Assembly: GCA_029261095.1 (NCBI GenBank)
Contig: JAJDBZ010000381.1
Location: 1-35,931, forward strand
Source: Candidatus Omnitrophota bacterium
GTDB lineage: Bacteria > Hinthialibacterota > Hinthialibacteria > OLB16
Direction: 5' to 3'
Length of the DNA: 35,931 nucleotides
Part shown: one piece after another, positions 5,474 to 15,954 of the stretch
How the letters are laid out: each line of letters starts with the position of its first letter
Position numbering within the stretch: the first letter of the stretch is position 1
Position numbers and translations under genes: made by a program
Notes under the pieces: generated by a model
The model's database searches: none
Told to the model about the DNA's origin: nothing
The model's input: the letters and a program-made list of their open reading frames with translations, nothing else

Positions 5474-6247
5474 CTAGAAGGATTTCGAATGTCTTCCGCT
5501 AATTCTGAAATCGATATCGCCTGGATTGACGATGCTGCACATCCCACAGACTCGCGAAAAAACCGGGTAAGTAATTTGTTCCTCAAGTTCTTTCATGTTG
5601 AGGTTGCTGGTCACAATCAGGGTTTTATTTTCCGAATACCTCTGATCGATAATCGAGTAGGTCTGCTCGCGCACAAAATCGCTGAGACGTGTAACCCCCA
5701 GGTCGTCAATCACGAGAATATCGACCGAGACGAGTCGATTCAGACGGGAATTCTCCTCGTCCGAAATCGATCCCCCGACACGGTTCCGAAAATCGCGGAT
5801 CAAGGAAGCGGAGTTGTAAAAAAGTCCGGTGTGCCCTTGTTCGACCAAGTCGATCAACGCAGCAACAGCGAGATGAGTCTTACCTGTTCCAGCCGCACCG
5901 AGCAGGAACAGTCCCCCTTTTTCTGTGGAGACATCGAACTCTTTGACGAATTTTCTGACCCGATGGGAGGCGTTTCTGCGCTGATCGGTATCGGCCTTGA
6001 AATTGTCGAGAGTCTTGGATTGGTATCGTTTGGGAATGTTTGCTTTCTTTAGGCGCTTTCGAATCTGCCGATCGGCCAAACAATGGCAGATCTGAACATC
6101 GTTATCGGATACGATATAACCGTAACCATCACAGTCCGGGCACTCATTCTCGACTGTTTCAGTCGGTCCCCTCTCCGCCAGGGATTGAATATCCCTCAGG
6201 AAGTTCAACACCTTTGGGTCTTCCCCAATCTTTTTGAACTCGTTCAT
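5474..6247 (-). CDS. DnaC/DnaI/IstB-type AAA+ helicase-loader-like ATPase
   Basis: The 257-residue protein has an N-terminal cysteine pair element (C36-P-D-C39 and C54-H-C56), likely a small zinc site as in DnaI-type loaders. An AAA+ domain follows with Walker A GAAGTGKT (117-124), Walker B ILVIDDLG (177-184), sensor-1 VTSN (~212-215) and a candidate arginine finger at R232. The known role of this family is loading the replicative helicase onto DNA; IstB transposition proteins share the fold. The context argues for replication: it follows a DnaD-like gene on the same strand and no transposase is nearby. The start lies 89 nt inside that gene in another frame. No good ribosome-binding site is visible, so translation is probably coupled. 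Confidence 0.85.
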   Translation of the reverse strand: MNEFKKIGEDPKVLNFLRDIQSLAERGPTETVENECPDCDGYGYIVSDNDVQICHCLADRQIRKRLKKANIPKRYQSKTLDNFKADTDQRRNASHRVRKFVKEFDVSTEKGGLFLLGAAGTGKTHLAVAALIDLVEQGHTGLFYNSASLIRDFRNRVGGSISDEENSRLNRLVSVDILVIDDLGVTRLSDFVREQTYSIIDQRYSENKTLIVTSNLNMKELEEQITYPVFSRVCGMCSIVNPGDIDFRISGRHSKSF

Positions 6248-13491: not shown

Positions 13492-13553
13492 TGCTGGAAC
13501 ACTGACCTCATGTTGCTGGAACGTGGCTCGTGGTGCTGGAACGTGGCTGTGCC
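13492..13553 (+). repeat. Three iterations of a ~21-bp TGCTGGAAC unit
   Basis: TGCTGGAAC occurs at 13492, 13514 and 13534, each followed by related bases; the second and third share TGCTGGAACGTGGCT. The array starts a few bases after the aldolase stop codon and runs into the left inverted repeat, whose first 13 bases are the last iteration. Confidence 0.6.
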
Positions 13554-13690
13554 TCGTTCCTTTCCCCGCATCGGATTCCCATCCGATGTGAGACAGCATG
13601 AACAATAAAATGACGGAACCGATTTCAGCCGCGACGAGTTAAAACTCGTCGCTACTCACACGAAACCCACACCTATCGGTGTGGGTTGAG
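13536..13690 (+). repeat. Left arm of a ~155-bp inverted repeat flanking the beta-helix gene
   Basis: Its reverse complement recurs at 15710-15869. Conserved blocks in the same order are CTGGAACGTGGCT, CCTCGTTCCT, TCGGATTCCCATCCGATG, CCGCGACG-GTTAAAAC-CGTCGCTA, CACACGAAACCC and CACC---GG-G--GGTTGAG. It contains three internal palindromes: 13569-13588, 13631-13652 and 13664-13687. There is no open reading frame of note. Confidence 0.75.
13664..13687 (+). terminator. 10-bp perfect stem-loop, possible aldolase terminator
   Basis: AACCCACACC (13664-13673), loop TATC, and GGTGTGGGTT (13678-13687) form a strong hairpin 180 bp after the aldolase stop. No T-run follows. Because the same hairpin type recurs at ~15388 and ~15717 in the repeat copies, it may be a repeat component rather than a dedicated terminator. 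Confidence 0.35.
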
Positions 13691-13709
13691 GATCTGATCC
13701 AAATATCAA

Positions 13710-13738
13710 TTGACGAAATGTCCACCCACTACTAGACT
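13710..13738 (+). promoter_or_regulatory. Near-consensus promoter of the beta-helix gene, leaderless
   Basis: TTGACG (13710-13715), a 17-bp spacer and TAGACT (13733-13738) form the best plus-strand promoter of the window. The ATG at 13748 begins nine bases after the -10 box, which is about where transcription would start. No ribosome-binding site precedes the ATG, so a leaderless mRNA is expected. Confidence 0.7.
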
Positions 13739-13747
13739 TTTGTAGAA

Positions 13748-15133
13748 ATGATCGTCTATCGAGTCGCCCTGCTCATCGCTATATTCTCCCTCCCGGCTGC
13801 GGCGGCAACCCACCATGTCTCGAAGGATGGTAACGGGACCGATGGACAAACCTGGAAAAGGGCCTTCCCCGCCATCGGCGAAGCGCTCGCCCTAGCCTCG
13901 GCCGGTGACGAAGTGTGGGTCGCAAGTGGGACCTATCATGAGGTGATCGAATTGCCGACCGGCGTGGCATTGTTCGGAGGGTTCCATCCACCGTCGCAGG
14001 TGACGGAGTTCGAGGACCGAGATTGGAAATCGTTTGAATCGATTATAGACGCGACAGGACTTGAAAGGTCCGCCGTCGTTATCCATGCGAGTTGTACAAT
14101 CGATGGATTTACAATCACAGGGGGGTATAGCATTGGCAGAGACGGAGGGGGCATTTCGGTCGGGACCAGGAATACCTCAGGCAGCATCGTGCGGAACAAC
14201 CTCATAACAAGGAACATCTCATTCGGAGGAGGAGGAGGAGGGATTGCTCAATTCCATGGAGCGATTTGCGACAATACGATTAGTCATAATTGGTCGGTTT
14301 TAGACGCCACGATTACCGGTACGGTGGGAAGCGGTCAGGGCGGTGGTCTCTATCGATGTGATGGAGAGATCTATCGCAATGTTATTTCCACTAATAATTT
14401 GGGCAATACCAAATACAGATCTGGTGGCGGTTTGGCTCGTTGTGATGGGGTTATTTCAAAAAATATAATAGTGTCTAACCTTGGGTGGAGCGGGGGAGGT
14501 ATAGCCGGAAGTTCAGGAAGGATAGAAAACAATCTTATAGTGGGAAATATCGCAGAGACTCCACCGAATGAACGGTTACTGAAAGGGATAACAATGGAAT
14601 TCTTGGCCAACGGAGCTGGCTTGGATCAATGTCGTGGAGAAGTGATCAACAACACGATCGTGGATAATATCTCAGAACATAAGCCAGCAGGGATCAGCAT
14701 CTCTATTGTATCGAACTGTATAGCATTCTATAACCTTGTCTCTCAGTCTGGTGAGCAATCCGATATAGGGCTCGAATCTTCGGAAAGGTACTGCTGTATC
14801 GGAGTCGATGATAGAACACTTGACGGAAGTCCCGCTGGAGTTGGCAGCATTGGTGATGAACCCAGTTTCGTCGACAGGGAGGGTGGGGACTACCGTCTTC
14901 TATCCAGTTCTCCTTGCATCGACACAGCCACCGACACTGATCTGACCACCGATATCGAGGGAAACCGAAGACCCGTGGACGTGATTGGAGTGGGTCGAGA
15001 CGGCCAGGATGCGTACGATATGGGGGCTTATGAATTTCAAATTCCGAGATCCGACCTCAATGGCGATGGTTACACCAACCACGTGGACCTCATGATCTTC
15101 CAACAAGATTGGATGAAGGTGTCGGGGTCATGA
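13748..15133 (+). CDS. Secreted right-handed parallel beta-helix protein with dockerin-like tail
   Basis: The 461-residue protein has a signal peptide (hydrophobic ~3-18, likely cut after AAA at ~20). The entry segment HHVSKDGNGTDG--W--AFP-I-EAL is standard for secreted beta-helix (pectin-lyase-fold) proteins. Residues ~110-330 form rungs with recurring DNxI/NNLI and GGG turns. The tail at 436-454 (D-L-N-G-D-G-Y, then D, then W) is one dockerin-like calcium loop and ends seven residues later, so it is a half-dockerin. The middle (14380-14800) is visibly AT-richer than neighbouring genes. It may be a surface or polysaccharide-acting protein. It lies between inverted repeats, and a second copy of its last 15 codons follows at 15419. 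Confidence 0.85.
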   Translation: MIVYRVALLIAIFSLPAAAATHHVSKDGNGTDGQTWKRAFPAIGEALALASAGDEVWVASGTYHEVIELPTGVALFGGFHPPSQVTEFEDRDWKSFESIIDATGLERSAVVIHASCTIDGFTITGGYSIGRDGGGISVGTRNTSGSIVRNNLITRNISFGGGGGGIAQFHGAICDNTISHNWSVLDATITGTVGSGQGGGLYRCDGEIYRNVISTNNLGNTKYRSGGGLARCDGVISKNIIVSNLGWSGGGIAGSSGRIENNLIVGNIAETPPNERLLKGITMEFLANGAGLDQCRGEVINNTIVDNISEHKPAGISISIVSNCIAFYNLVSQSGEQSDIGLESSERYCCIGVDDRTLDGSPAGVGSIGDEPSFVDREGGDYRLLSSSPCIDTATDTDLTTDIEGNRRPVDVIGVGRDGQDAYDMGAYEFQIPRSDLNGDGYTNHVDLMIFQQDWMKVSGS

Positions 15134-15415
15134 ACGCTCGGGGTCTTGATCGGTGCAGGAAAACGGATCATACCCAAGGAATTCAAAAAGTGTCATTTCG
15201 ACGTTAGGAGAAATCTGATGGGAGAGACACGCTGAATCGACGCCACCGGTTACAATGGGTGAGTCGACTCCTTCGATTTAATTTGAGGTTGGACAAGATC
15301 AACAACACCTATCAGATTTCTCCCTCCGGTCGAAATGACAGTGAGTGAAGCATCTGGAGGAATCGAACGTTCAACCCACAACCCGCACCCCCAGGTGCGG
15401 GTTTCGTGTGCATAG
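15084..15415 (+). repeat. Tandem duplication, unit A (includes the gene's 3' end)
   Basis: The unit starts in the final 16 codons of the beta-helix gene and continues through non-coding DNA to GGTGCGGGTTTCGTGTGCATAG. Unit B (15417-15750) repeats it at a distance of ~333 bp. The first 44 bases are identical in A and B; the rest is clearly homologous but diverged with small indels. Confidence 0.8.
15191..15340 (+). repeat. ~150-bp element with ~28-bp inverted ends, copy 1
   Basis: It begins TGTCATTTCGACG--GGAGAAATCTGAT and ends with the reverse complement-like ATCAGATTTCTCC--CGGTCGAAATGACA. The interior is non-coding with a GAGTCGACTC palindrome. No transposase is encoded, so it looks like a MITE- or REP-like non-autonomous repeat. 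Confidence 0.7.
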
Positions 15416-15418
15416 ATG

Positions 15419-15466
15419 GACCTCATGATCTTCCAACAAGATTGGATGAAGGTGTCGGGGACATGA
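15419..15466 (+). pseudogene. Orphan 3' fragment of the beta-helix/dockerin gene
   Basis: Sixteen codons including the stop encode DLMIFQQDWMKVSGT, matching the last residues of the complete gene with one change at the end (T for S). No start codon or upstream coding sequence goes with it, so it is a leftover of duplication and not expressed as a protein. Confidence 0.75.
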
Positions 15467-15533
15467 ACGCGATGCCCTTTGATTGGTGAAGGCAACCTAA
15501 TCATACCCGAGGAGTTCACAAGGTGTCATTTCG

Positions 15534-15673
15534 ACGCTAGGAGAAATCTGCTGGGAGAGACACGCTGAACCGAAGCTGCCGTTTACAATGGGGTAGTCGA
15601 CTCTCGAGATTCAGTTTGAGATCGAATTGAACCCACATCATCTATCAGATTTCTCCCTCCGGTCGAAATGACA
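15534..15673 (+). repeat. ~140-bp element with inverted ends, copy 2
   Basis: It carries the same ends as copy 1 (TGTCATTTCGACG... and ...CGGTCGAAATGACA) and a diverged interior about 10 bp shorter. It lies at the same relative position in unit B as copy 1 in unit A, so the two were multiplied together. Confidence 0.7.
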
Positions 15674-15709
15674 CTTAGTGAAGCATCTTGAGAAATCGAA
15701 CGTTTAACC

Positions 15710-15869
15710 CTCAACCCGCACCCCCCGTGGTGCGGGTTTCGTGTGCGTAGCGACGCGGTTTTAACCCGTCGCGGACTTCAATCGGTTGGACATGTTTCCC
15801 AACTCTTTCCAAACTCCATCGGATGGGAATCCGACGCCGCCGAGGAACGAGGCGGGAGCCACGTTCCAG
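15710..15869 (-). repeat. Right arm of the ~160-bp inverted repeat
   Basis: The reverse complement matches 13536-13690 block by block. Palindromes inside include CATCGGAT-GGGA-ATCCGACG (15817-15836) and the GCGACGCGGTTTTAACCCGTCGC region (15750-15772). Confidence 0.75.
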
Positions 15870-15895
15870 GAAATGCCCAGCAACCTCAACCCCCT

Positions 15896-15940
15896 CCCAT
15901 GGTCGAAACCATGGGCTATTCTGAAAAGCCCCGATGGGGC
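15896..15940. repeat. Two adjacent palindromes at the end of the repeat island
   Basis: CCCATGGT-CGAA-ACCATGGG (15896-15915) is a perfect 8-bp stem with a tetraloop. GCCCC-GAT-GGGGC (15928-15940) follows. They close the ~860-bp gene-free stretch 15134-15994; nothing else in this stretch looks like a gene. Confidence 0.55.
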
Positions 15941-15954
15941 TAAAAGCAAGCCGC

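Follow-up and report, generated by a model that had tools for sequence, protein, structure and literature searches.

Dispersed palindromic repeats delimit duplicated segments and flank beta-helix and IS200-type tnpA genes in a Candidatus Omnitrophota genome

Introduction

REPs and their transposases are generally regarded as a closed system that moves repeats only. Elements of the IS200/IS605 type carry LE and RE hairpins on one strand and have no terminal inverted repeats (TIRs), and MITEs consist of TIRs with a target-site duplication and contain no coding gene. TIRtrons (TIRYT) have a Y1 transposase with a long terminal inverted repeat on either side (Di Nocera et al. 2013, PMC3733652), and for REPtrons movement as a unit has been denied (PMC6006769). 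REPs, REPINs and both of these repeat-transposase systems are already known. In the genome described here, repeats of this kind lie at the borders of host-gene copies that may be mobile cargo, an arrangement of which a literature search, of incomplete coverage, found no report.

The window analysed here, a stretch of 35,931 nucleotides, is the whole of contig C314 of a 6.68-Mb MAG in 725 contigs. Like MITEs and other non-autonomous TIR elements, its segment 13536-15869 has inverted ends, dispersed copies and no transposase of its own; unlike MITEs, its arms enclose a full 1.4-kb gene. In outline the arrangement also recalls integron gene cassettes, with single-gene units, arrays and hairpin-forming recombination sites between units, but here there is a promoter per unit, the sites are inverted instead of a single attC, and the enzyme found nearby is an HUH transposase, that of integrons being IntI.

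Results and discussion

The inverted arms are composites of two dispersed repeats

The initial annotation had placed inverted repeats at 13536-13690 and 15710-15869. These sequences do match in inverted orientation, with 75% identity over 166 columns (E=6e-17 against the whole genome); the match spans 13536-13691 on the left and 15709-15869 on the minus strand on the right (E=6.3e-17). Matching inverted blocks between the arms lie at 13513-13529/15856-15872, 13536-13548/15857-15869, 13568-13588/15817-15837 and 13641-13673/15729-15761, and a further inverted block pairs 13652-13691 with 15376-15415. The internal palindromes that had been described were likewise found in both arms (GCGACGAGTTAAAACTCGTCGC, AACCCACACC..GGTGTGGGTT and CATCGGAT..ATCCGATG). 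Both arms combine two separable dispersed repeats, module A and element B (Table 1). In the left arm, B consists of hairpin h2 (GCGACGAGTTAAAACTCGTCGC), a CTA foot (GTAG on the opposite strand), CACACGAA and hairpin h1 (AACCCACACC..GGTGTGGGTT), and the truncated B element between the arms breaks off directly after the TAG foot. An Rfam scan of the window gave no match. Directly beyond the right arm, at 15895-15945, lies another dispersed repeat, AACCATGGGCTATTCTGAAAAGCCCCGATGGGGC, with copies of 88% identity on C48 and 80% on C613.

Table 1. Positions of the features in and between the two arms
Feature	Position	Strand	Basis
Module A, left arm	13534..13590	+	two-hairpin repeat CTGGAACGTGG..CGTTCC / CATCGGATTCCCATCCGATG; nhmmer
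B element, left arm	13617..13692	+	covariance model R1, 83 bits; covariation
Promoter-like TTGACG-17 nt-TAGACT	13710..13738	+	sequence; same in C201 and C613 paralogues
Secreted beta-helix-like protein, 461 aa	13748..15133	+	profile matches
3' untranslated repeat region	15134..15375	+	inverted GTCATTTCGAC..GGAGAAATCTG / CAGATTTCTCC..GTCGAAATGAC arms; common to paralogue C301
Truncated B element (h1 only)	15376..15415	-	R1, 38 bits; sequence
Candidate relic, 3' end of second beta-helix cassette	15417..15707	+	83% to C301 3' end, 291 columns
B element, right arm	15708..15786	-	R1, 80.5 bits
Module A, right arm	15817..15869	-	nhmmer, 49-50 bits

Only one gene is present between the arms, as had been claimed. 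The statement that no transposase accompanies it holds within the segment, but elsewhere in the genome tnpA genes of the IS200 type have these repeats on either side (see below). The inverted orientation of the arms had also suggested an invertible, phase-variable module switched by recombination between them, which we find scarcely credible. The promoter-like sequence lies inside the segment beside the gene, so flipping the segment would not switch expression and inversion is unlikely to act as a switch. A scan of window proteins revealed no site-specific invertase, and the arms are just 75% identical, where phase-variation modules have an invertase, near-identical inverted sites and a segment that carries or reverses a promoter relative to the gene. 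Moreover, where this layout is met again, at unrelated loci, it represents duplicated genes instead of inverted ones.

B is a covarying two-hairpin repeat with many copies

B is about 77 nt long and comprises two covarying hairpins linked by an invariant TAG foot, in the order CCGCRACRGGTTNAAACCYGTCGC, TANTCACACGAA and a second hairpin whose arms differ between copies. Among 38 copies, 8 of the 16 predicted base pairs show double compensatory changes; since these paired changes maintain base-pairing, it is the hairpins themselves that are conserved. REPs have GTAG or GTGG at the 5' foot of the palindrome. In B, on the opposite strand of the first hairpin, TAG is invariant in all 38 copies, extended to GTAG in 15 (both window arms among them) and to ATAG in most others.

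With covariance model R1, at least 114 B matches at E<0.01 were found in the 6.7 Mb MAG, 51 of which are strong (59 bits or more); because 150 of about 1,990 candidates were scored, the weak tail of these matches is a lower bound. The model gave no matches in 14 relatives from the same family, class or domain. Many copies form B-/B+ pairs with spacers of 0-65 nt, and as a short extragenic palindrome in many copies, often in inverted doublets, B resembles REPs and REPINs. Module A, about 55 nt with two hairpins, has 26 copies in the 1.24 Mb examined with nhmmer. A further GTAG-type family, the GTAGCGCCGTCTTCCAGACGGC palindromes, occurs in the genome as well (L161 on C669, 5' of a beta-helix gene, and L093 597-652).

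The enclosed gene and its 3' region

The 461-aa protein carries a signal peptide, DUF1565-type right-handed beta-helix repeats (Pfam DUF1565, 22 bits), a choice-of-anchor Q match (NCBIfam choice_anch_Q, 36.5 bits) and one dockerin-like EF-hand tail. The dockerin label, here and in the family, denotes sub-threshold Pfam scores of 15.5-18.5 bits against a cut-off of 22.9 (Dockerin_1, 15.5 bits for this protein). The -10-like hexamer of the promoter ends 9 nt 5' of the ATG. The same spacing of about 9 nt ahead of the start codon is seen at window 13733-13748 and in the paralogues on C201, C613, C494, C554 and C669, and this short -10-to-start distance across the family suggests that its mRNAs may be leaderless.

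Downstream of the gene, the duplication that had been reported is present: about 300 nt recur at a spacing of 333 nt (15084-15383 and 15417-15716, 83% identity). Its reading as a tandem duplication is replaced here by another. The second copy starts straight after ..GTGTGCATAG, the foot joining both B hairpins, and matches the 3' end of the C301 paralogue, and we read 15417-15716 as what probably remains, at the 3' end, of a second cassette that was mostly deleted. This relic comprises a DLMIFQQDWMKVSG-coding stretch, which encodes the end of a dockerin-like tail, and its 3' region. The first copy is 89% identical to C301 over 229 nt. The window gene is a mosaic, closest to C201 at its B+/promoter/signal-peptide end and to C301 at its 3' end. 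A third family of repeats, the inverted GTCATTTCGAC..GGAGAAATCTG, is often found immediately ahead of a B element, with sites at window 15182-15349 and 15515-15682, at 10900-11060 on C114 and on C301.

B copies are concentrated beside beta-helix genes

Beta-helix paralogues number 41 ORFs in the DNA examined, with 80 matched pieces genome-wide. Of approximately 55 strong B copies, sixteen are no more than 600 bp away from beta-helix ORFs, a flank zone of 37.8 kb or 0.57% of the genome; compared with the genome average, this is a 51-fold enrichment (p=2.7e-23). In contigs sampled without bias, 617 kb in total, only 2 strong copies occurred. Roughly two thirds of the strong copies are not beside beta-helix genes, and most of the 41 ORFs have no B. 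A plain repeat scattered at random, which the initial annotation had named as the finding that would speak against a cassette, is ruled out by the 51-fold enrichment. The same annotation had proposed looking for the repeat around other beta-helix genes, and several paralogues are indeed enclosed as B+ gene B-.

Eight convergent B pairs, 0.2-2.5 kb apart, were found in the DNA examined (B-bearing C325, C492, C481, C115, C471, C561, C412, C404, C713 and others lie outside this census). They enclose five beta-helix genes (on C314, the window, and on C201, C178, C578 and C494), two tnpA genes (C178 and C114), one beta-helix relic, and nothing else. The relic, on C303, is a B-bounded beta-helix/dockerin gene whose middle is deleted and whose A-B...B-A ends are those of the window (L093 184-423); the gene on C494 is frame-broken, with B elements still bounding it (L095 661-1805). 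Both appear to be decayed cassettes. C713 has weak convergent B matches about 1.5 kb apart. A loose convergent pair on C36, 3.0 kb apart, with one weaker B and four unrelated genes inside, was left out of the count. B-flanked genes occupy three separate parts of the C-terminal tree, so gain or loss of B has happened repeatedly.

Given the fragmentation of the MAG and the position of several B copies at the ends of contigs (C201, C494, C303 and C484), an assembly or binning artefact was considered; it is very unlikely, given that the window arms and the copies on C178, C578 and C114 are internal to contigs and that the copies are divergent rather than identical. We also weighed a role at the RNA level, in which B- past the stop codon would act as a terminator or mRNA stabiliser, B+ would end the upstream transcript, and both would have been co-duplicated as regulation. 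The hairpins do covary, and a GC-rich h1 starts about 4-15 nt from the stop codon in C201, C613, C178, C578 and C303, followed by GGGTTTCG. Against this, most paralogues are without B, B flanks tnpA on both sides as terminal repeats, and it occurs in both orientations at other genes, all of which makes such a role improbable.

Homology between copies ends at B

In four comparisons, homology between cassette copies ends exactly at the edges of B. Between C178 and C578, the alignment of the beta-helix cassettes covers 1,597 columns with 80% identity and runs from the first B+ to the outer end of the next B+, i.e. [B+ gene B- spacer B+]; past this point one contig has tnpA and the other an unrelated gene. 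Homology between C201 and the window begins on the 5' side at B+ (C201:72, window 13620), and that between C201 and C613 on the 3' side (84% over 752 columns) ends where B+ ends. The two tnpA units on C178 and C114 are 72% alike, with homology ending at B on each side. C17, which the C-terminal tree places closest to C178/C578 among the paralogues, is without B and has only coding sequence in common with them. B repeats, then, delimit duplicated segments and flank tnpA and beta-helix genes. Full-cassette identity between copies is 80% at best; with no pair of copies near-identical, no recent event is seen. An empty site in relatives was sought via the neighbouring 707-aa PMT/TPR gene and was not found, since the best match of that gene is only 36%, in another genus.

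On balance, we lean towards a reading in which the arms are REP/TIR-type A+B repeats and B-bounded beta-helix cassettes were duplicated within this genome with B as the breakpoint. The window gene would be one of several members of the surface-protein family in such cassettes, each of the form B+ -> promoter-gene <- B-, often in arrays linked via B-/B+ pairs. The earlier proposal of a non-autonomous cassette for a surface protein gains support from the tie of the repeat to the gene family, the recurrence of B+ gene B- and the ending of homology at the repeats. We infer that the B repeats caused the duplications, and the pattern suggests that they spread beta-helix genes around the genome. Dispersed B copies could have recombined with one another, or TnpA could have cut and joined B hairpins in single-stranded form, so that an excised [B+ gene B- spacer] was inserted at a different B; either route would yield the direct B+ repeats around the C178 and C578 cassettes. 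B-bounded duplication would explain part of the beta-helix gene expansion in the genome, and REP systems, whose repeats here mark the limits of duplicated host genes, would contribute to the spread and diversification of surface proteins. Several observations count against this reading: the strong B copies away from beta-helix genes, the many beta-helix ORFs that have no B, the scatter of B-flanked genes over the tree, the lack of near-identical copies, the usual enclosure of tnpA alone in named relatives and the low score of TnpA as a REP transposase.

It is also possible, though we doubt it, that REP-like repeats spread alone into intergenic DNA and persist beside a fast-evolving, expendable beta-helix family without any cassette mobility, the family having grown by ordinary segmental duplication with B copies as accidental breakpoints of homologous recombination. 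REPs are known to occur just downstream of ORFs (PMC3733652), B copies flank many other genes too, A copies mostly flank others, and the same intergenic regions are crowded with other palindromic repeat families. Against such passive accumulation stand the 51-fold enrichment beside beta-helix ORFs, the convergent pairs 0.2-2.5 kb apart that enclose beta-helix and tnpA sequences exclusively, and the blocks ending exactly at B in four comparisons.

B repeats bound IS200-type tnpA genes

Five PF01797 genes are present in the genome, two of which are enclosed by inverted B elements with the tightness of insertion-sequence ends. On C114, only a few bases separate the tnpA stop codon from B, and the gene starts about 20 nt past B. 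On C178, where tnpA directly adjoins a beta-helix cassette, a first B pair is followed by tnpA, a second B pair, the beta-helix gene and a third B pair; the three B pairs are 196 bp each and 93% identical, and their ends coincide with the outer edge of the second hairpin. Both tnpA units end exactly at B edges, the repeat-bounded arrangement of TIRtrons.

The TnpA proteins (136-155 aa) have the HUH (DHVH) and Tyr (YILNQ) motifs of IS200/IS605 transposases. They score 67.7-73.6 bits with the NCBIfam IS200/IS605 equivalog (cut-off 55) and match the ISHp608 structures PDB 2f4f and 2a6m (E about 1e-7 to 1e-8). With NCBIfam REP_Tyr_transpos they score 17-32 bits (cut-off 80), so that they are not recognised as the cognate RAYT of a REP or REPIN system. 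With their HUH and Y---Q motifs and ISHp608 structure matches, they resemble the TnpA of IS200/IS605 elements such as IS608 and ISDra2; unlike those elements, tnpA here is bounded by inverted two-hairpin B repeats of about 60-75 nt. As in TIRtrons, a small HUH/Y1 transposase is tightly bounded by long, internally palindromic, dispersed inverted repeats, but here cellular genes of a surface-protein family are enclosed by these repeats as well, whereas the accessible part of the TIRtron description mentions no cargo (PMC3733652). B shares with the RAYT-associated REPs of REPtrons, REPINs and BIMEs its nature as a palindromic extragenic repeat, often in inverted pairs with a short spacer, the position of tnpA between oppositely oriented repeats and possibly the GTAG/NTAG foot (PMC2817692, PMC3116915, PMC6006769, PMC8266576). 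It differs from them in that the transposase scores as IS200/IS605 and not as REP-associated, a strict GTAG is limited to 15 of 38 copies, and genes other than tnpA are enclosed.

B probably serves as terminal repeat to an IS200-like TnpA system of this genome, which would form a REPtron/TIRtron-like unit. TnpA remains a putative agent of cassette duplication, and present-day mobility is equally putative. The stronger proposal, that an IS200-type single-strand transposase with REP/TIR-like hairpins mobilises surface-protein genes as one-gene cassettes piling into arrays, strikes us as rather unlikely; such a system could be likened to integrons, but with HUH chemistry and REP pairs.

Relatives of these tnpA genes were found 80 times in named genomes, mostly of Chloroflexi, Cyanobacteria and Planctomycetota (L220-L299). 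Inverted repeats within 350 bp flank 59 of the 76 testable relatives, compared with 1 of 270 shifted control positions at the same loci, suggesting that this TnpA subfamily is generally bounded by inverted repeats; such loci resemble published TIRtrons and REPtrons (PMC3733652, PMC2817692, PMC6006769). When cargo was sought in these repeat-flanked loci, mainly tnpA alone was enclosed, so cargo does not appear to be general in the subfamily. The bounding repeats of the relatives are roughly 20-260 bp long and lie tight around the gene in most. In the present genome, a third IS200-type tnpA (L191, C167, 6043-6719) has on each side a repeat pair, the two almost identical, from a related but different subfamily (GCCCAAGGTTAAAACCTTGGGC), and the window itself encodes an IstB/DnaA-type ATPase, IS21 helper-like, at 5474-6247 on the minus strand, on the same contig as the arms.
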